This document shows positions 23,528 through 31,459 of a DNA stretch of 64,000 nt, piece after piece. Numbering within the stretch: position 1 is the first letter of the stretch; every line of letters begins with the position of its first letter. Where the stretch lies: the NCBI RefSeq assembly GCF_007066085.1, contig NZ_CP041405.1:1922001-1986000 (forward strand), written 5' to 3'. A program made the position numbers and the translations under genes. Under the pieces are notes generated by a model. That model did not search any database. It was not told the origin of the DNA and was given only the letters and a program-made list of their open reading frames with translations. Source of the stretch: Paenibacillus thiaminolyticus. GTDB taxonomy: Bacteria; Bacillota; Bacilli; Paenibacillales; Paenibacillaceae.

Positions 23528-23863
23528 TCAGGCATACAGATGGCCGAGCGCATCCGATACGATCTTGTTCACATCCTGAATAACGACCGCCAGCCGCTGT
23601 TCGGCTTCGAACAGCTCCGCGATCTCCGAATTCATGCTGATCACTTCATACAGCTTCTCCATTTTGTCCAGCTCCGACTGCTCCGGCATCTCGCCAGTCA
23701 TCATCTTCTGCTGCATCTCCATCTGGCGCAGGCGGAAATCATCCAGCATCCGCTTGCTGTCCGCATCGGCCTCAATCGCCTTCATCGCCGTCTCGACGGC
23801 CTTCGCCTCGTCCGATTGCTGCAAGGCACGGGCCAATTCATGGGCTTGATCATGTACACTCAT
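23528..23863 (-). CDS. yheA: YheA-type protein (YlbF/YmcA superfamily)
   Basis: An all-helical 111-residue protein of the YlbF/YmcA-like group (UPF0342, YheA). The sequence is a run of amphipathic helices: HDQAHELARALQQSDEAKAV, then ADSKRMLDDFRLRQMEMQQK and ELFEAEQRLAVVIQDVNKIV. YlbF and YmcA relatives form complexes that act on RNA processing and development in Bacillus; YheA itself is uncharacterised. It is followed upstream by yheB on the same strand and by the yheC/yheD genes on the other, which reproduces the B. subtilis yhe gene neighbourhood and supports the name. Confidence 0.85.
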   Translation of the reverse strand: MSVHDQAHELARALQQSDEAKAVETAMKAIEADADSKRMLDDFRLRQMEMQQKMMTGEMPEQSELDKMEKLYEVISMNSEIAELFEAEQRLAVVIQDVNKIVSDALGHLYA

Positions 23864-23932: not shown

Positions 23933-25108
23933 CTACGAACCGATAGCCAGCAGAATCAGAGACTGAATCAAGCCGATAAGCCCCCCAAGCAGCGCCCCGA
24001 GCCACGTGATAGCACGGAACTCCTTCCCAGAGACGCTCAAAATAATCGTCTCCAGCCGCTCGATCGGGAACTGCTCCACCTGAGAACGGACGACTTCCTG
24101 CAGGCGGGCGGCACGCACCACCTTGTCCAGATTGCGGTCCAACAGCGCGATCGCGGAATCGACGAGCCGCGGCACGTACGGCTGCCAAGCCTCCTTACTC
24201 TCCTCCAGCCAGCGGCTCGGGCGCGCGTCTCCCCACCGTTCCAAGCGGCGGCTCCACTGCAACCATGACTTCGCCAGCCCGATAATCTGGCCGGCAGGCT
24301 CGGACTCGTCGCCGGACCAGGCGCGCAGCAGCTCGGCCGGCGGCTGGCTCAGCCACTCCTCCAGCTTCCGCTCCAGCATGAGGGTCACAGTCTCATGGAC
24401 CTTGTCGGAACGAAGCTGCTCCGCCAGCAGAGGCGTAATCCGCGTGACCAGCTTGTCTTCATCGACGAAGATGGCAGCCATCACGCCCATGAAGCCCTTC
24501 GACCGGTCGACGAACTCCTTCGCCATCCTCAGCAGCATGCGCTGCCCGCTAGACGACAGCAGCTCCCGCTCAATCGACAGCAGGATGGCGGAAGCGGCCT
24601 TGCCTGCCAGCCGGTTCAGGCTCTCCTCCTGCCCTTCCGGCAGGAATTCGGACAGCGGACGCTCGTTCCAGCCGCTGCCCGCCAAGCCGCGCCGGATTCC
24701 CGACTCGGTCAGCTTGTCGAGCCGCTCACCCCATGTCGCGCACAACTCGGGCCAGCTGTGGCCGGGGAAAGCGAGCGCGGCCCATTCGCGCAGTGTGCGA
24801 TCATCCGCCAGCAGCCGGTCGAGAAAGCCCGCCAAGCCAGCCGCCGCCCGGTCCTGCACCTCCGGCTGGCGCAGCATCGCCCGCAGCCCGTCGCTGGTCA
24901 CCAAATATTCAGATACGACATCCCCTAACGAGGCCGCAATATCTAACTTCCGCTTCGGAATGAGGCCTGGCGTGAACGGCACCCTTCGTCCGAACAGATG
25001 AATCGGCTGCCGCGGGTGGAACAGCATCTTTATTGCAAAATGATTCGTAATGCCGCCGACAAACGCGGCCACAATGACGCTAAATAGAATAAACAACCAA
25101 TTGGGCAC
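23933..25108 (-). CDS. yheB: DUF445 membrane protein YheB
   Basis: A 391-residue DUF445 protein with one hydrophobic segment at each end: an N-terminal helix (residues about 2-21, NWLFILFSVIVAAFVGGITN) and a C-terminal pair (AITWLGALLGGLIGLIQSLILLA). The N-terminal signature GGITNHFAIKMLFHPRQP and FTPGLIPKRK are diagnostic for the family. The start is taken as GTG at 25108 because AAAGGAGGGG lies 5 nt upstream; earlier in-frame codons lack a site. It probably shares a transcript with yheA and diverges from five ATP-grasp genes. Its biochemical role is unknown; the conserved linkage suggests a sporulation-related job. Confidence 0.88.
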   Translation of the reverse strand: MPNWLFILFSVIVAAFVGGITNHFAIKMLFHPRQPIHLFGRRVPFTPGLIPKRKLDIAASLGDVVSEYLVTSDGLRAMLRQPEVQDRAAAGLAGFLDRLLADDRTLREWAALAFPGHSWPELCATWGERLDKLTESGIRRGLAGSGWNERPLSEFLPEGQEESLNRLAGKAASAILLSIERELLSSSGQRMLLRMAKEFVDRSKGFMGVMAAIFVDEDKLVTRITPLLAEQLRSDKVHETVTLMLERKLEEWLSQPPAELLRAWSGDESEPAGQIIGLAKSWLQWSRRLERWGDARPSRWLEESKEAWQPYVPRLVDSAIALLDRNLDKVVRAARLQEVVRSQVEQFPIERLETIILSVSGKEFRAITWLGALLGGLIGLIQSLILLAIGS

Positions 25109-25261
25109 GTCCGCCCCTCCTTTCATGGTGCAGCTCAATCACCAAGGGAAATATGTCCTCATATGATGAATTACGTATGCGGTTCACCTGCAGTAGTATC
25201 GACTCCAGCCCGGTGCATACCGTGATCCATCATGCAAGTCGTCGTTGGAAGGAGAACCAAC

Positions 25262-26623
25262 ATGTTGAAATCAAAAGTGAGGCTCCACGTTGTGAGCGCC
25301 GGCATCTTGCGGGAAGACACAATCATGTTGGGCGACAGCTATGTCAAGCAATGGAAGATTCCCGTAAACCATCCGATTACGCTCCGCTTCGGTTCCTTCA
25401 GACAGAGTGTGACCGTATCCTCCGTTCCCAAATCTGACGGGCTCCGGATCAATCACGCGCTTGCCCGCAATATGGGCCTGTCTAACGGTGGTACCGTGCG
25501 GCTAACGTATACCCAGCAGACGTTGAGAATCGGTCCGCTCATCGGCGTCCTGATCAGCCGGGATTATCCTGATGTTCCGGATCGGCCGTTCGGCACGATT
25601 ACCGCCTTCTGCCGGGAGATGGTCGATGCCTGCCAATCTCAAGGAGCCGTTGCCTGCTTCTTCACGCCAGAACATGTGAAGGACTCTCAACGGATACAGG
25701 CATGGGTTTTTACAAAAGGAACTTGGCAGCTCACCAGCATGCCAATCCCGGATGTCGTGAACAATCGCTTAACTACACGATCTCTGGAGAACAAACCTAG
25801 CGTACAGCATTTCATGAAAGAAGTAAAATCACGTTACCAGTCACATGTTTTCAATGAAAAGTTTCTGGATAAGACCGAGGTGTTCGACGCGTTGAAGGCC
25901 AGTGCGGAGTTGACACGCTACTTGCCGGAATCGCATCTGCTGCGCAGCTACTCTACGCTCAAGACGATGAGCGGGCGATATCAGACCCTCTTCCTGAAGC
26001 CGGCCAGGGGAAGCCTCGGCAAAGGCATCATCTGTATTAACCGCACCTCGGATAACAGCTTTCAAGCCCTCTATTCCAATATTAGCGGCACCAAGCGCCA
26101 GAACTTCAACAGCTTAACCAAGCTGTTCTCTTCCCTGTCCGGGAAGCTGAAGACGAACCGTTACCAGATCCAGCAAGGCTTGAACTTGATCGATTATGCC
26201 AAGCGCCCGATCGATTTCCGCGCGCTCGTTCAGAAGAACATTCATGGCCGCTGGAGCATCACGTCCATCGTCGCCCGAACCGCGAGCACGCAGCATTTCG
26301 TGTCGAATGTGGCGCGCGGCGGAACGCTCAGCACCGTGAAGGAAGCGGTCAGCCGCTCGAATCTGCCGACCGGCGCGAAGAGCGATATCGTGGGCAAGCT
26401 CCAGCGGGCCGCGCTCGATATCGCACGCGGCATCGACACGCATATTCCCGCTCACTTCGGTGAATTGGGGATTGACCTGGCTATCGATACGTCAGGCAAA
26501 GTATGGCTGCTTGAAGTCAACTCCAAGCCTTCCAAAAATGACAATACTCCGTTGAACGTCAACCGAGTCCGTCCCTCCGTCCGCAAAACGGTGGAATACG
26601 CCCGGTATTTGTCCGGATTTTAA
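25262..26623 (+). CDS. YheC/YheD-type ATP-grasp protein 1 (453 aa)
   Basis: First of five adjacent ATP-grasp proteins of the endospore coat-associated YheC/YheD group. Residues 1-90 form an extra beta-rich domain (KVRLHVVSAGILREDTIM, LRINHALARNMGLSNGGTV) that is shared only with the third protein. From about residue 92 (IGPLIGVLISRD) the ATP-grasp module follows: nucleotide lysine in FLKPARGSLGKG (Lys246), DFRALVQK (Asp318, Arg320), and the Mg-binding end WLLEVNSKPSK (Glu418, Asn420). All key residues are present, so ligase activity is possible; the substrate is unknown. ATG at 25262 follows AAGGAG. It diverges from yheB and leads a tight five-gene run. Confidence 0.9.
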   Translation: MLKSKVRLHVVSAGILREDTIMLGDSYVKQWKIPVNHPITLRFGSFRQSVTVSSVPKSDGLRINHALARNMGLSNGGTVRLTYTQQTLRIGPLIGVLISRDYPDVPDRPFGTITAFCREMVDACQSQGAVACFFTPEHVKDSQRIQAWVFTKGTWQLTSMPIPDVVNNRLTTRSLENKPSVQHFMKEVKSRYQSHVFNEKFLDKTEVFDALKASAELTRYLPESHLLRSYSTLKTMSGRYQTLFLKPARGSLGKGIICINRTSDNSFQALYSNISGTKRQNFNSLTKLFSSLSGKLKTNRYQIQQGLNLIDYAKRPIDFRALVQKNIHGRWSITSIVARTASTQHFVSNVARGGTLSTVKEAVSRSNLPTGAKSDIVGKLQRAALDIARGIDTHIPAHFGELGIDLAIDTSGKVWLLEVNSKPSKNDNTPLNVNRVRPSVRKTVEYARYLSGF

Positions 26624-26637
26624 GGAGGCGACAGGGA

Positions 26638-27795
26638 ATGAAGAAGAATAGAACCGATCAGCAGCCTGTCATCGGCGTTCTGCAGACCGAATCGCCCGGA
26701 ACGCCTCCCTTCACCGAGCCTGAATATTGCCGCCGGCTGTGTCAGGCCGGACGCAAACACGGCGTTCGAGTTATCGTATTTTCGCCTGAATGGGCCGACC
26801 TTGCTTCCGGCACGGTGAACGGTTATGTCTACGGCGACCAGCGATGGGAGCCTTGCACTACCGCGTTGCCTTCCCTTGTGTACAACCGATGCATATTCTC
26901 CGGCGGAAGCGCCAGCGCCAGAACTTCAACCGCCCTCGCCAAGCTGCTGCGGAGCAGACGCACTGCCCAGTTGGGGGTTGGATTGCGGGGCAAATGGGAC
27001 ATCTACCGCTCCTTATCCACGGAGTCTGGCCTGAGCGCGATTCTGCCGCCCACTCATCTCTACAAGGGCAAGCGCAGCCTCGCTGCTGCGCTGTCCCGCT
27101 ACGGCGGAAGCCTGTTCCTGAAGCCTCATGCCGGCTCCAAGGGGAAGTCTGCCCTCCGGATACAGTATCGCCGGACGGCACAGCAAAGAGATGGAAGCCA
27201 TGCCCCCTTACTCCATATAACAGGACGCGATCAACGCAACCGCCCGCTAACGAAGCAATTTGAATGCACCAAGGATGGATACGACTGGATTGCCGCCTTT
27301 ATCGGCAGACGAACCTTTGTCATGCAGCCTTGCTTGTCCTTGCTGACGCAAGCAGGCGAGCCATTCGACATTCGTGTGCTGATGCAAAAGAATGACCGGG
27401 GCCGTTGGACGATGACCGGCACGGCCGCACGCATCGGCACCCCTGACAGCATTACTTCCAATCTCCATGGAGGCGGGCGGGCCGTGTCTGTCCTTCCATT
27501 TTTGAAGCGCGAATATGACCCGGAGCGTGCCGAGCGGCTCATGGAGCAGCTGCATGCTTATAGCGAGCGCATTCCCCCTCTACTTGAAGCACGACACGGG
27601 CGTCTGATGGAGGTCGGTCTGGATTACGGCATTGATCGGGAAGCCCGCATGTGGCTGCTGGAGGTCAATTCGAAGCCGGGCAGGACGGTCTTCCGTCAGA
27701 CAGGCGAGCGGGAAGCCGCTGTGAAATCCGTGGAAAATCCCATCTTGTATGCGCGCTATGTATTGGGTCGACATCTTAGGAGGGTAAGTCCATGA
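26638..27795 (+). CDS. YheC/YheD-type ATP-grasp protein 2 (385 aa)
   Basis: Second ATP-grasp protein of the run, a short form that starts almost directly with the core (VIGVLQTESPG). Core landmarks: FLKPHAGSKGKSALRI with the nucleotide lysine at Lys162, DIRVLMQKNDRGRW, a glycine-rich SNLHGGGRAV loop and the metal end MWLLEVNSKPGR. The VYNRC segment before the ATP-binding part is where other family members have VYNRLPSR-like sequence. It lies 14 bp after protein 1 with AAGGAGGCGACAGGG before the ATG, and its stop overlaps the next start (ATGA). Its loop residues differ strongly from its neighbours, so it is not a recent copy. Confidence 0.88.
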   Translation: MKKNRTDQQPVIGVLQTESPGTPPFTEPEYCRRLCQAGRKHGVRVIVFSPEWADLASGTVNGYVYGDQRWEPCTTALPSLVYNRCIFSGGSASARTSTALAKLLRSRRTAQLGVGLRGKWDIYRSLSTESGLSAILPPTHLYKGKRSLAAALSRYGGSLFLKPHAGSKGKSALRIQYRRTAQQRDGSHAPLLHITGRDQRNRPLTKQFECTKDGYDWIAAFIGRRTFVMQPCLSLLTQAGEPFDIRVLMQKNDRGRWTMTGTAARIGTPDSITSNLHGGGRAVSVLPFLKREYDPERAERLMEQLHAYSERIPPLLEARHGRLMEVGLDYGIDREARMWLLEVNSKPGRTVFRQTGEREAAVKSVENPILYARYVLGRHLRRVSP

Positions 27796-29168
27796 GTTTG
27801 ACGGTATGCAACGTCCACTTAACACCTAAATCCGAGAAAACAGTGTATCTCTCCAGCACCTTAATGAAGCAATTGAAGCTAACCGGCAAAAAATCAGTAC
27901 GGCTTCGATTGGGCAAGGCGACAATCCCCGCTACGCTGAAGCCGGTGAAGCGTCCAGGCAACCATGTCATCATACCGGCCGGCCTTCGTTCCTTCGTCCG
28001 GGTGCCGAAATCCGGTATGGTCTATCTTCGCAACGATCAGGAAGGCGATTTGCAATTGGGGCCGCTGATCGGCATCTTATCGGATTCCTCGCTGCACACG
28101 CATTCGCATCCATTCGGCAGCCGAACCTCGTTCATTAAGCAAATTTTGCGCGTCGGGAATAAGAAAGCCTACGTCTTTGCCTTCACTCCGCGCGACATCA
28201 ATTGGCATAACGAGACCGTCAACGCCTACTTCCTATCGGAATCCGGCAGTTGGATCCGGCGCACCGTGCCGCTGCCGGATGTCGTATATAACCGGCTGCC
28301 GAGCCGGAGGGCAGAGACGACGACCCCGATCCAGATGCTGCGGGAGCGGTTCGTTCGCCGGAACATCCCTTTTTTCAACTGGAGCTTCTTCAAAAAATCC
28401 GATATCTACGAGCTGCTGGAAAACGATCTGGAGGCTAATCTCCACGTGCCGGAATCGGTCATGAATCCGACGCAAGATACGATTCGCGACATGCTGGCCC
28501 GCCATCAGTTCGTCTACTACAAGCCGACCTCGGGAAGCCTAGGTATCGGCATCTACCGGCTGACCTACCTGCCGAGAAAAGGCTATTTCGCACGTTACAC
28601 GGTCAATGGCAAAAACACGCTGCTCCGCTTCAAGCAATTCTCCAGCCTCATGCGCATGCTGCAAGGAAGGCACGGCCGTTCGCTGCGTAACTATGTTGTG
28701 CAGCAGGGAGTTCGGCTCGTCGAGATCGATGGCTGTCCGATCGACTTCCGCTTCCATATGCACAAGAACGGAGAGAATGACTGGACCGTTGTCGGAATCG
28801 GGGCCAAGAAAGCCGGCAAAGGCAGCGTTACCACTCACGTGAAGAATGGCGGTCAACTGATGACGCCGGAGCAGGCTCTCCAGCGGATGTTCGGCCACAG
28901 AGCCGACGAAGTGCTTGCCAATATGAAAAGGGTAGCCGTCGAACTGGCGATGGCCATTGAACGGAACTATCCTCATTTGCTCGGCGAGCTCGGCTTCGAT
29001 CTCGGCATTGACCGGGATGAGCATGTATGGATGTTCGAGGCCAATGCCAAGCCAGGGCGCTCGATATTCAAGCATCCATCCTTGCGCACTGAAGGTCAAT
29101 CATCCATTGAACATATCCTGGATCATTGTTTGTTCCTTAGCAAATTCCGCAGGAGGGATCCGATGTGA
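27792..29168 (+). CDS. YheC/YheD-type ATP-grasp protein 3 (458 aa)
   Basis: Third ATP-grasp protein, long form with the same type of N-terminal beta domain as protein 1 (CNVHLTPKSEKTVYLSS, SVRLRLGKATIPATLKPV). The core has LQLGPLIGILSDSS, VYNRLPSRRAE, the nucleotide lysine in YYKPTSGSLGIG, DFRFHMHKNGENDW and the metal end WMFEANAKPGRS. Here the usual VQK after DxR is MHK, and EVN is EAN, so protein 3 and protein 4 may form a separate sub-type with a different substrate (inference). ATG overlaps the previous stop by 4 bp and follows AGGAGGG. Confidence 0.9.
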   Translation: MSLTVCNVHLTPKSEKTVYLSSTLMKQLKLTGKKSVRLRLGKATIPATLKPVKRPGNHVIIPAGLRSFVRVPKSGMVYLRNDQEGDLQLGPLIGILSDSSLHTHSHPFGSRTSFIKQILRVGNKKAYVFAFTPRDINWHNETVNAYFLSESGSWIRRTVPLPDVVYNRLPSRRAETTTPIQMLRERFVRRNIPFFNWSFFKKSDIYELLENDLEANLHVPESVMNPTQDTIRDMLARHQFVYYKPTSGSLGIGIYRLTYLPRKGYFARYTVNGKNTLLRFKQFSSLMRMLQGRHGRSLRNYVVQQGVRLVEIDGCPIDFRFHMHKNGENDWTVVGIGAKKAGKGSVTTHVKNGGQLMTPEQALQRMFGHRADEVLANMKRVAVELAMAIERNYPHLLGELGFDLGIDRDEHVWMFEANAKPGRSIFKHPSLRTEGQSSIEHILDHCLFLSKFRRRDPM

Positions 29169-30274
29169 GTGGCATAGAGCAAGATCAGCTGCCGATCGTC
29201 GCCATTCTGACGATCGAGGATGCCAAGGAAAAATTCCGCGGCAATCGCGATAACTTCCTGGACATCTTGCGTGCGGGCAAGGATCTCGGATTTACCGTAT
29301 ATATCGTGACCGTGAGGGATCTGAAGCTCGATGCCAAGCGAATCGCGGGCTATGATTACAACGAGGATAAGCAAGCCTGGCAGCAGGATTGGTTCCCCCC
29401 TCCCCGCATCGTCTATAACCGCATCCCGCTGCGGGAGGATGAGAATCTGCCTGCCGTCCGCAACAAGATCGAGGAGATTCTGGGCCATTCCAGCATTCGC
29501 CTGTATAATCCTTACTTTTTCAACAAATGGCAATTGTTCGAATGGCTGAAAAAATCGAGGGCCACCCGGCCCTTCATCCCCGCGACGCGGCGGCTGCGCA
29601 CCTCTGTCGCGCTGGCCAAAATGTTGAACAAACATCCCTATCTGTTCCTGAAGCCGGAGACGGGCAAGGCGGGCATGGGCATTATGACGCTGCGCGTCAA
29701 TCATACGAAAGCGATGAAGTTCCGGCTGAAGACTCAGGACAAGAGAAGGAGCGCCCTGTTCAAATGCGCCACGATCTCGAAGCTGTGGACCCGGATACGC
29801 AAGCAGGCCGGGACCCATGATTATATCGTCCAGCAAGGCATTCCGCTGGCTACGGTGAACCGGCGGCCGTTTGATTTGCGGGTGCTCGTGCAGAAGAACA
29901 GCAAAGGCCAATGGGATATTACCGGTGTCGGCGCCCGTGTCGCCGGCTCTTCAAGCATTACGACCCATGTCCCCCGCGGCGGAAGCATCGAGGATCCCGA
30001 GAAGCTGCTGAGCGCAAATTTCGGTGCCGAACAAGCGCGGAGAACGATGGCCCGGACTAAAAACGCGGCCATCATCATCGCCCGGCAGATCGAACGCGGC
30101 TCCGGACATATGCTGGGCGAGATGTCGATGGATTTGGGCGTGGATACGAACGGCAGCATCTGGTTCTTCGAAGCCAATGCGAAGCCGATGAAATTCGATG
30201 AGCCTCACATTCGGAGGCGCTCACTGGAACGAATATTCCAGTATTCGACTTATTTATCCCGAACCGGCGGATAA
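29165..30274 (+). CDS. YheC/YheD-type ATP-grasp protein 4 (369 aa)
   Basis: Fourth ATP-grasp protein, short form. Its start is GTG at 29165 inside the GTGA overlap with the previous stop, with AGGAGGG upstream. Core landmarks are VYNRIPLREDEN, the nucleotide lysine in FLKPETGKAGMG, DLRVLVQKNSKGQW, the loop THVPRGGSIEDPEK and the metal end WFFEANAKPMK. The N-terminal part (VAILTIEDAKEKFRGN) starts the Rossmann-like first lobe immediately. All catalytic positions expected for ATP-grasp enzymes are kept. Functionally it is expected to join a carboxylate to an amine using ATP, but the substrates are not known for this family. Confidence 0.9.
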   Translation: MSGIEQDQLPIVAILTIEDAKEKFRGNRDNFLDILRAGKDLGFTVYIVTVRDLKLDAKRIAGYDYNEDKQAWQQDWFPPPRIVYNRIPLREDENLPAVRNKIEEILGHSSIRLYNPYFFNKWQLFEWLKKSRATRPFIPATRRLRTSVALAKMLNKHPYLFLKPETGKAGMGIMTLRVNHTKAMKFRLKTQDKRRSALFKCATISKLWTRIRKQAGTHDYIVQQGIPLATVNRRPFDLRVLVQKNSKGQWDITGVGARVAGSSSITTHVPRGGSIEDPEKLLSANFGAEQARRTMARTKNAAIIIARQIERGSGHMLGEMSMDLGVDTNGSIWFFEANAKPMKFDEPHIRRRSLERIFQYSTYLSRTGG

Positions 30275-30295
30275 CGTCAAAGAAGGTGAAGACGC

Positions 30296-31459
30296 TTGGA
30301 TGAACCCGTTCTTGGCATCTTGACGCTCTATATGAATGAACACAAACAATTGGAAGAACGGCATATTTATCAGAAGATGACTGTGGCCGGCAAGAAGCTG
30401 GGGTTGACCGTCTTCGTATTCACCCCGGAGGATGTCGATGACCATCAGAAGCGAATCAACGGCATGTGGTACCATCCGAAGAGCGGGCGCTGGATGCGTA
30501 AATGGACCCGCTTCCCGACCATGATCTTCGACCGGTGCCGCATTCAGAAAAGCTACCGGTTCGAGCAGTTGAAGCGGTTCCGCAGCAAATACCCGAAGCT
30601 CCTGTATCTGAATCGTCCGCTCCGCAATAAATGGACGATCCACCAAGTGCTCTCCACAGTCCCGTCCTTGAAAAAGTATCTTCCCGACACAAGGCTGTAT
30701 TCGGGGATTCAGGATGTGCAGCGCATGCTGAAGGAGCGGCCGCTGCTCTACCTGAAGCCGATTAACGGCACCGGAGGGCGCGGCATTCTTCGCATCCAGC
30801 GCCTCCGTTCGGCGGACGGCGTGGTCTATGTCGAGGGAAGAGATCATCGTCGGCAGGTCATCCGGCCGCTGAAAATGACCTTCTCTCAGTTGGCCGCCAG
30901 GCTAGCCTCCTGGAAGGCGAACGACCGCTATCTCATCCAGCAGGGCATCGCGCTCAAGCTGCCGAGCGGCCGCGTGCATGATTACCGGATGCTCGTTCAG
31001 AAGAACGGCTCTGGCGTCTGGTCGGTTACGGGCTGCGCCGGGCGCGTCGGACCGCTCAACAGCATCACATCCAATCTCCATGGCGGAGGCCAGGCCGTGC
31101 GAATGGAGTGGTTGCTGACGCAGTGGATAGGAGACAAGGGCCGCATCCAGGACATCCGCAAGGAGGCCGAAGTCCTCAGTCTCGCGGTAGCCGAATTCCT
31201 TGAGAAGAGATATGATGCTCTCTGCGAACTGGCGCTCGATCTCGCGATCGACCAGAAAGGACGCATCTGGCTGCTGGAGGTCAATCCGAAGCCGGCGCGA
31301 GAAGTGTTCCACCGCATCGGCGACAAGGAGACGTACCGCAACTCGATTGTGCGCCCGCTGGAATATGCATCCTGGCTGTACCGGAAAAAGGCGGGTATGA
31401 AACTGCCGGATTCCGACAAATCGCCGCTCCCGACAACCGACAACAAATCGGAAGGATAA
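30296..31459 (+). CDS. YheC/YheD-type ATP-grasp protein 5 (387 aa)
   Basis: Fifth and last ATP-grasp protein, short form. The most likely start is TTG at 30296 (first residues MDEPVLGILTLYMNEH) with AAGGTGA 6 nt upstream; no ATG gives the conserved first strand. Core landmarks are IFDRCRIQKSYR, YLKPINGTGGRGILRI, DYRMLVQKNGSGVW, the SNLHGGGQAVR loop shared with protein 2, and WLLEVNPKPAREV. It resembles protein 2 more than protein 4, which suggests an older duplication series. The gene ends at a clear terminator, closing the operon. A weak start codon may keep its level below that of the others. Confidence 0.88.
   Translation: MDEPVLGILTLYMNEHKQLEERHIYQKMTVAGKKLGLTVFVFTPEDVDDHQKRINGMWYHPKSGRWMRKWTRFPTMIFDRCRIQKSYRFEQLKRFRSKYPKLLYLNRPLRNKWTIHQVLSTVPSLKKYLPDTRLYSGIQDVQRMLKERPLLYLKPINGTGGRGILRIQRLRSADGVVYVEGRDHRRQVIRPLKMTFSQLAARLASWKANDRYLIQQGIALKLPSGRVHDYRMLVQKNGSGVWSVTGCAGRVGPLNSITSNLHGGGQAVRMEWLLTQWIGDKGRIQDIRKEAEVLSLAVAEFLEKRYDALCELALDLAIDQKGRIWLLEVNPKPAREVFHRIGDKETYRNSIVRPLEYASWLYRKKAGMKLPDSDKSPLPTTDNKSEG

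Follow-up and report, generated by a model that had tools for sequence, protein, structure and literature searches.

The 64,000-nucleotide stretch of Paenibacillus thiaminolyticus DNA analysed here, referred to as the window (contig NZ_CP041405.1, positions 1,922,001 to 1,986,000), harbors five consecutive genes of the YheC/D-like ATP-grasp family PF14398 on the + strand (window positions 25262-31459). The original prediction, made from the sequence alone, had described a tight run of five such genes opposite yheA-yheB, and the open reading frames (ORFs), the Pfam matches and the intergenic spacings (+14, -4, -4 and +21 bp for genes 1 to 5 in order) agree with it. In a search against the YheC/D families, all five products scored well over the gathering cut-off of 26.8 bits (224-269 bits), while their pairwise identity is 23.5-34.6%. 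Each of the five starts is preceded by a purine-rich, ribosome-binding-like stretch, which for gene 1 favours a start at 25262 instead of 25232, where its longest ORF begins, and the five genes presumably form one transcript. The predicted presence of the nucleotide-binding lysine, DxR and ExN..P in all five proteins, as well as of an additional N-terminal domain of ~80-90 residues in genes 1 and 3 only, was likewise observed; the number of proteins ending in EVN, given as two, is three (genes 1, 2 and 5). The gene 5 protein is 96% identical to a P. thiaminolyticus protein annotated as YheC/YheD family. The features of the locus are collected in Table 1; 3' of the run lie a convergent HAD-type phosphatase gene and a YpdA-family gene. 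The 6.6-Mb genome, assembled in one contig, contains 11 PF14398 matches, 6 of which are dispersed.

Table 1. Features of the five-gene locus, numbered from the first nucleotide of the window.
Feature	Position	Strand	Evidence or remark
yheA-like gene (YlbF/YmcA family), divergent neighbour	23528..23863	-	PF06133 97 bits; synteny
yheB-like gene (DUF445), divergent neighbour, outside the operon	23933..25138	-	PF04286 164 bits; conserved synteny
Sigma-K-type promoter	25139..25168	+	-35 TCACC 25139-25143; 15-bp spacer; -10-like TCATATGATG 25159-25168
Gene 1 (clade A)	25262..26623	+	PF14398 262 bits; clade A UFBoot 100
Gene 1, N-terminal duplicated domain	~25262-25540	+	duplication by hhalign, 93%
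Gene 1, YheC/D ATP-grasp domain	25844-26611	+	
Gene 2 (clade B), orthologue of B. subtilis-group YheC	26638..27795	+	PF14398 224 bits; UFBoot 100
Gene 3 (clade C), orthologue of B. subtilis-group YheD	27792..29168	+	PF14398 269 bits; UFBoot 100
Gene 3, N-terminal domain, followed by ATP-grasp domain	~27792-28065	+	homologous to clade A N domain
Gene 4 (clade D), GTG start, no N-terminal domain here	29165..30274	+	PF14398 265 bits; UFBoot 100
Gap of 21 bp between D and E, no GNAT-like gene here	30275..30295	+	GNAT-like gene (~155 aa) there in several other genera
Gene 5 (clade E), TTG start	30296..31459	+	PF14398 266 bits; UFBoot 97

The family was found in 40 of 40 genomes of the window's genus, family and order, with 4-18 matches each, and the main locus was fetched from 37 of the 39 genomes other than that of the window (G024 and G034 were left out). 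The five-gene locus is present in 33 of the 38 loci of the order, window included, and in a tree of these 33 loci the genes at positions 1-5 form clades A-E, in identical order throughout. The exceptions are two loci without gene 2 (L034 and L041), one without gene 5 (L042), one interrupted by a contig end (L040) and one without gene 1 (L036), the genome of the last having a second cluster (L048) with a gene of type A. A class-wide FastTree of 169 proteins and an IQ-TREE of 58 proteins agree, the latter with ultrafast bootstrap (UFBoot) support of 100 for A, B, C and D, 97 for E, 100 for B+E and 90 for C+D. Each of the five genes is under purifying selection, the dN/dS ratios of the window's copies against five near species being 0.09-0.32. 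The claim that the five are not recent copies therefore holds, with 23-35% identity and five anciently separate, class-wide clades in trees that include the relatives. Recent tandem duplication, with the copies retained for dosage, has only the tandem arrangement in its favour; it is ruled out by these trees, and we attach practically no weight to it. In the locus of one relative (L025:11689-12675, G017), gene 5 seems to be broken into a 328-aa ORF and an overlapping 75-aa YheC/D-like ORF.

Many of the loci fetched from other Bacilli carry A-B-C-D, and some also E, adjoining the same yheA-yheB pair. For a broader count we used a named set, namely, the best 80 of 515 loci by similarity to clade C, with a Bacillus sequence first; being chosen by clade C, this sample misses any locus lacking C and is hardly informative about other families. 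Its labels are mostly Bacillus or genera split from Bacillus, with one Paenibacillus sp. and one Bacillota bacterium, and it includes B. halotolerans, B. velezensis and B. siamensis as relatives of B. subtilis, which itself lies outside the 80. When genes were assigned by best hit and the class 'Dd' was taken as D, an equation backed by IQ-TREE for Geobacillus and Peribacillus, the two sampled genera, 67 of the loci were A-B-C-D, 10 B-C, 2 A-C-D and 1 C alone. The ten B-C loci are labelled B. siamensis, B. velezensis, B. halotolerans, B. altitudinis, B. pumilus, B. safensis, B. zhangzhouensis, B. stratosphericus and, in two cases, Bacillus sp. B. subtilis-group YheC corresponds to gene 2 and YheD to gene 3 (two loci in the IQ-TREE, four in the class-wide FastTree), and only these two genes share with them both a clade (UFBoot 100 each) and synteny with yheA-yheB; genes 1, 4 and 5 are orthologues of neither. 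Judged from its group's loci, B. subtilis yheC-yheD are orthologues of genes 2 and 3 with the same divergent yheA-yheB, and the group differs in being without A, D and E. It had been stated that B. subtilis has two such genes, and its close relatives do carry just the pair B and C, but such a pair is not the rule (10/80 named loci). The five genes had accordingly been presented as an enlargement of a two-gene norm, a description that has to be turned around: A-B-C-D(-E) is the widespread and common state, and in the B. subtilis and B. pumilus groups the B-C loci appear to be a reduced version.

The catalytic motifs are well kept across the clades. In 148 proteins of clades A-E, the xKP lysine, the following glycines, Q, DxR and GG are each conserved at 94-100%, as are the E and D ahead of the last strand and the N and P of ExN..P, while the E of ExN is kept in 93%; the lysine, DxR and ExN..P residues we take to have the roles assigned to them in this superfamily. 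The six 'Dd' Bacillus-type D proteins, which lie outside the 148, also retain the lysine, DxR and ExN. This conservation disfavours the idea that the proteins are structural pseudo-enzymes. The EVN/EAN ending tracks the clade: EVN predominates in B, EAN in C, and EVN or EIN in A and E, and EAN occurs in 27/27 proteins of D. Across the 33 five-gene loci 22 positions are invariant, and 11 are fixed (>=88%) inside clades yet differ between them; 7 of these 11 lie in the stretch from DxR to GG, at residues 335-349 of gene 3, and the remainder are 199, 322, 405 and 423 in gene-3 numbering. Such clade-specific positions fit differing specificities, and the five enzymes probably do differ in this respect.

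The region upstream of the operon resembles a promoter for the late mother-cell sigma factor. An alignment of 19 genus loci revealed a single conserved, nearly invariant block, ending TCACC-N15-TCATATGAT(G/A). A published table gives the B. subtilis sigma-K consensus as KCACM / GCATANNNTA (PMC3416734), and a spacing of 14-16 between the -35 and -10 elements is stated in PMC517825; on these we built a search pattern. In the window, TCACC-N15-TCATATGATG is exact in its -35 element and departs from GCATANNNTA at two bases (the first and last) of its -10 element, the pattern matching once with 0 matches expected. It matched 5' of the first gene in 19/19 genus loci, 17/19 other loci of the order, 16/27 loci of other Bacilli and 62/80 named loci, the three groups outside the genus serving as the test, compared with mononucleotide-shuffled expectations of 0.3, 0.1, 0.5 and 1.1. 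Altogether, a sigma-K-type promoter was found in 114/145 loci, or 107/138 after removal of 7 loci repeating another's upstream DNA, 3 of which arise from genomes common to the class and named sets. Neighbouring genes of the same loci, with the window left out, gave 23/967 (0/121, 1/129, 4/223 and 18/494 by group, the genus figure coming from 18 of its 19 loci). The related pattern CACC-N16-CATANGATR had 5 matches in the 6.6-Mb genome versus 1 for a reversed control. The sigma-K-type promoter was matched in 0/10 named B-C loci and upstream of 0/6 dispersed paralogues of the window genome. A sigma-E pattern matched 2/19, 0/19, 1/27 and 6/80 loci (shuffled 0.6, 0.3, 0.8 and 3.7), numbers that settle nothing, since sigma-E control is known from B. 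subtilis and the pattern is insensitive to B. subtilis-group loci. According to PMC517825, yheC and yheD belong to the sigma-E regulon and are raised by SpoIIID, in contrast to the sigma-K-type promoter of the larger operons. From the upstream sequences we infer that the five-gene operon is transcribed by sigma-K RNA polymerase.

The distribution of the family was compared with that of SpoIVA. Among 250 Bacilli genomes PF14398 occurs in 171 and SpoIVA in 179, with both in 164, neither in 64, PF14398 only in 7 and SpoIVA only in 15 (Fisher p 1e-36, with the species not independent and dispersed genes included in the PF14398 counts). The family goes with spore formation, and spores can form without it. 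YheD itself is described as forming a shell on the forespore (PMC7911427). Loss of the cluster together with sporulation was considered for G024, a genome of the window's family with no SpoIVA and 4 weaker PF14398 matches; it fits, but is one genome only. This genome, which also lacks a yheB match, encodes a 701-aa protein with two tandem PF14398 matches (L082; G024:C1, 560425-562176) and two more PF14398 genes, of 350 and 429 aa, for which a role outside sporulation is possible. In G252 (L087), G097, G266 and G137, a 726-750-aa PF14398 frame replaces the cluster and is the sole match in three of the four.

In other lineages a second enzyme class joins the run. Where a gap follows gene D, it contains a conserved gene of ~155 aa, whose products matched GNAT models at E < 0.01 in 8/8 proteins tested; 5/8 scored over the curated cut-off for one or more models, L057 equalled it at printed precision, and L032 and L063 fell below. 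A profile built from 12 loci finds the gene in 23, and in 23/23 it lies 3' of D with no YheC/D gene between (L040.2 being counted as D by tree), overlapping D or at <=22 bp in 22 loci and at 307 bp in L056. In a genome search scoring the 15 best candidates per genome, the GNAT-like gene was present in 68/250 Bacilli genomes, all 68 with PF14398, and in 8/21 order genomes outside the window's genus; none of the 80 named loci yielded it. Its position fits a multi-enzyme modification pathway. It also bears on the proposal that the YheC/D proteins serve chiefly in coat structure or assembly, in which case ATP binding would drive polymerisation of a shell and no chemical product would be made. YheD-YheD self-interaction, shell-like localisation and the reportedly ATP-driven polymerisation of SpoIVA (all in PMC7911427) speak for such a role, as does the coat-associated naming of the proteins; a GNAT-like enzyme gene after D in 23 loci, together with catalytic residues, including E-x-N, kept in most of the 148 proteins, speaks against it, and we consider it unlikely.

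An hhalign comparison shows the clade A and clade C N-terminal domains to be homologous (98.8%, E 9e-17). The two halves of the clade A domain, aligned from 63 of 101 clade A sequences, match each other with a probability of 93% (E 2.8e-7), and 40 shuffles of the columns gave <=4.9%. Judged from clade A, the extra domain of genes 1 and 3 is thus internally duplicated, with two pseudo-symmetric halves. The clade A profile matches the PEX1 N domain (1wlf) with a whole-sequence E of 0.0053, each half falling on one unit, the two stretches not being significant singly (i-E 14 and 28); the clade C profile gave no PEX1-N-type match in PDB, and a UFD1_N1 match (E 0.23) is under the cut-off. Both PEX1 N and UFD1_N1 presumably have the double-psi beta-barrel fold, and genes 1 and 3 possibly carry an N-terminal barrel of this CDC48/PEX1 N type. 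Outside the window's order, clade D proteins have an N-terminal extension, but its identity with this domain was not supported (hhalign only 0.7% with A and 6% with C).

For the ATP-grasp part, weak matches were obtained to RimK-related proteins, MptN, glutathione synthetase and tubulin-tyrosine ligase, all of which resemble the five proteins weakly at the profile level and have a D-x-R ... E-x-N metal end like theirs. The difference from these amide ligases lies in the scores: only tubulin-tyrosine ligase, in gene 1 alone, passes a curated cut-off (31.9 versus 20.1), while those of NCBIfam were not reached by MptN (22.6 versus 350) or rimK_rel (18.9 versus 314.2) in gene 1 or by glutathione synthetase in gene 5 (18.3 versus 408), and a sequence search of PDB gave no match below E 0.1. 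Based on these similarities, the five enzymes are predicted to be amide-type ligases. Phosphotransferase (kinase) activity would be an alternative, as some ATP-grasp families, e.g., StITPK1, are kinases; the family and PDB matches to ATP-grasp enzymes of known activity, weak as they are, are to amide ligases, the GNAT partner would be better suited to amine chemistry, and we regard this alternative as improbable. Graspetide synthetases and other ATP-grasp peptide-modifying systems likewise make amide or ester links; no graspetide-type precursor peptide gene was seen among short ORFs, listed in gaps >100 bp of 22 loci, and a survey of graspetides makes no mention of YheC (PMC8939145).

The interpretation towards which we lean, if only slightly, is that of an old operon of five diverged ATP-grasp enzymes, expressed late in the mother cell under sigma-K and acting together as amide-type ligases. 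In this scheme, (i) sigma-K RNA polymerase would transcribe the operon late in the mother cell; (ii) each enzyme would most likely activate a carboxylate as an acyl phosphate and join it to an amine, by a chemistry like that of RimK, glutathione synthetase and tubulin ligases; (iii) the five specificities may act together on one peptide-type product or on proteins of the spore coat or exosporium; (iv) in many lineages, the GNAT-like acyltransferase of the same run may supply a further step; and (v) the duplicated barrel-like N-terminal domain of genes 1 and 3 probably binds a substrate or partner. The substrates, the product, the spore-surface location and the order of action are guesses. The multi-step ligase pathway first proposed for these genes is compatible with the intact ATP sites, old clades, selection, sporulation-type promoter and GNAT-like gene; its premise of five genes as a special enlargement is not.

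Several observations weigh against this interpretation: (i) in clade B, the E of ExN is absent in 9/36 proteins (27 E, 7 D, 2 other), 4 of which make up all of the B. subtilis/pumilus-type proteins (4/4), and Q replaces the lysine in 2/36, one of these four having lost both, while in the 'Dd' proteins K325 is gone in 6/6 and P245 in 3/6; (ii) the 19/19 promoter count for the genus is not independent, because the genus alignment had been seen before the pattern was written, and a stricter pattern with a final A leaves 10/19, 3/19, 14/27 and 48/80; (iii) the sigma-E pattern matches 0 of the ten B-C loci, so that sigma-E control of the larger operons may have been missed; (iv) the PDB matches to amide ligases, at E 0.1-0.8, are not significant; (v) the strong self-association reported for YheD fits a structural role too (PMC7911427); (vi) the genome search found the GNAT-like gene in 0/19 genomes of the window's genus; and (vii) sporulation itself does not depend on the set, given that 15/179 SpoIVA genomes are without PF14398 and that the B. 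subtilis and B. pumilus groups get by with two genes.

The dispersed paralogues give a further view of the family. Six were located in the window genome, among them L054 beside collagen-like, GT2 and metallo-beta-lactamase-fold (MBL-fold) genes and L050 beside a gerA operon; of 20 further dispersed loci in five genomes, L195 has a collagen-type neighbourhood and L199 an adjoining collagen-like ORF. As few dispersed loci show it, the link to collagen is a minority pattern, and the paralogues were rejected as a guide to function. The YheC/D paralogues of L054 (G000:C1, 521994-522665), L046, L047 and L195 lie beside a family of ~100-aa proteins (LLLxSIALEEiGLxHIINAEgEKIQ), with collagen-like proteins and an MBL-fold gene as neighbours; L046 and L047 are second clusters, and in L046 the N-terminus shared by the small proteins is fused to collagen repeats. 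GT2 glycosyltransferases lie near L054 and L047, and a GT2 piece in L195. A neighbourhood of the L054 type is possibly an exosporium-like locus. L050 (G000:C1, 433317-434039) is a single-domain YheC/D gene divergent to a gerA-type germination operon (PF03323, TIGR02887), and L051 (G000:C1, 3814177-3814896) is a short YheC/D gene on the opposite strand between apparent gyrB and gyrA. The position of L051 is that of orf14, described for Paenibacillus as the gene intervening between gyrB and gyrA (PMC5627462). The likeness to the five-gene set is membership of PF14398; the orf14-type gene differs in its single short domain (255 aa) and its place outside clades A-E, and no sigma-K-type promoter was found for it.

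Some of these paralogues are relevant to another reading, in which the enzymes would decorate spore polysaccharide with amino acids or peptides, as thought for the sugar-transfer-associated ATP-grasp family. Genes 1, 2, 3 and 5 have PF14397 (ATPgrasp_ST) as a secondary match, over the cut-off in 1 and 5, which is consistent with it, as are the few paralogues elsewhere near GT2 glycosyltransferase and collagen-like genes (L054 and L047, as well as L195 with the GT2 piece at its end). The PF14397 scores are 22-43 bits versus 224-269 for PF14398, however, and in the window the four nearest neighbours of the operon are not glycosyltransferases, so that we rate this reading as rather unlikely, at most on a level with a purely structural role.

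In going further than a set of amide-type ligases, we can only tentatively suggest, and rather doubt, that the Bacilli possess a hitherto overlooked assembly line, active late in the mother cell, in which four to five dedicated ATP-grasp ligases, in many lineages with a GNAT-like acyltransferase, build a single defined peptide-like molecule or a peptide tag bound to protein of the spore surface without a ribosome or nonribosomal peptide synthetase, the N-terminal barrels of A and C holding the growing substrate; most of it would have been lost in the B. subtilis group, which, if true, would be why it has never been seen. Iyer and others in 2009 and the Pfam entry are said to have predicted that YheC/D proteins modify spore-wall proteins. 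In the open-licence PMC literature, no article joining YheC, YheD and ATP-grasp or naming PF14398 was found, and the five-gene set, the reduction in the B. subtilis group, the promoter and the GNAT-like gene were not found in print there.

To conclude, the YheC/D proteins have been filed as coat associated with no function assigned, and the reports found concern B. subtilis, whose group keeps a reduced set; the usual model organism may therefore hide most of the spore chemistry linked to these genes. The larger operon offers a better system, in that it combines five presumed specificities with a defined promoter and, in related genera, another class of enzyme, and the function becomes testable by comparing the spores of five-, four- and two-gene species or of deletion strains.

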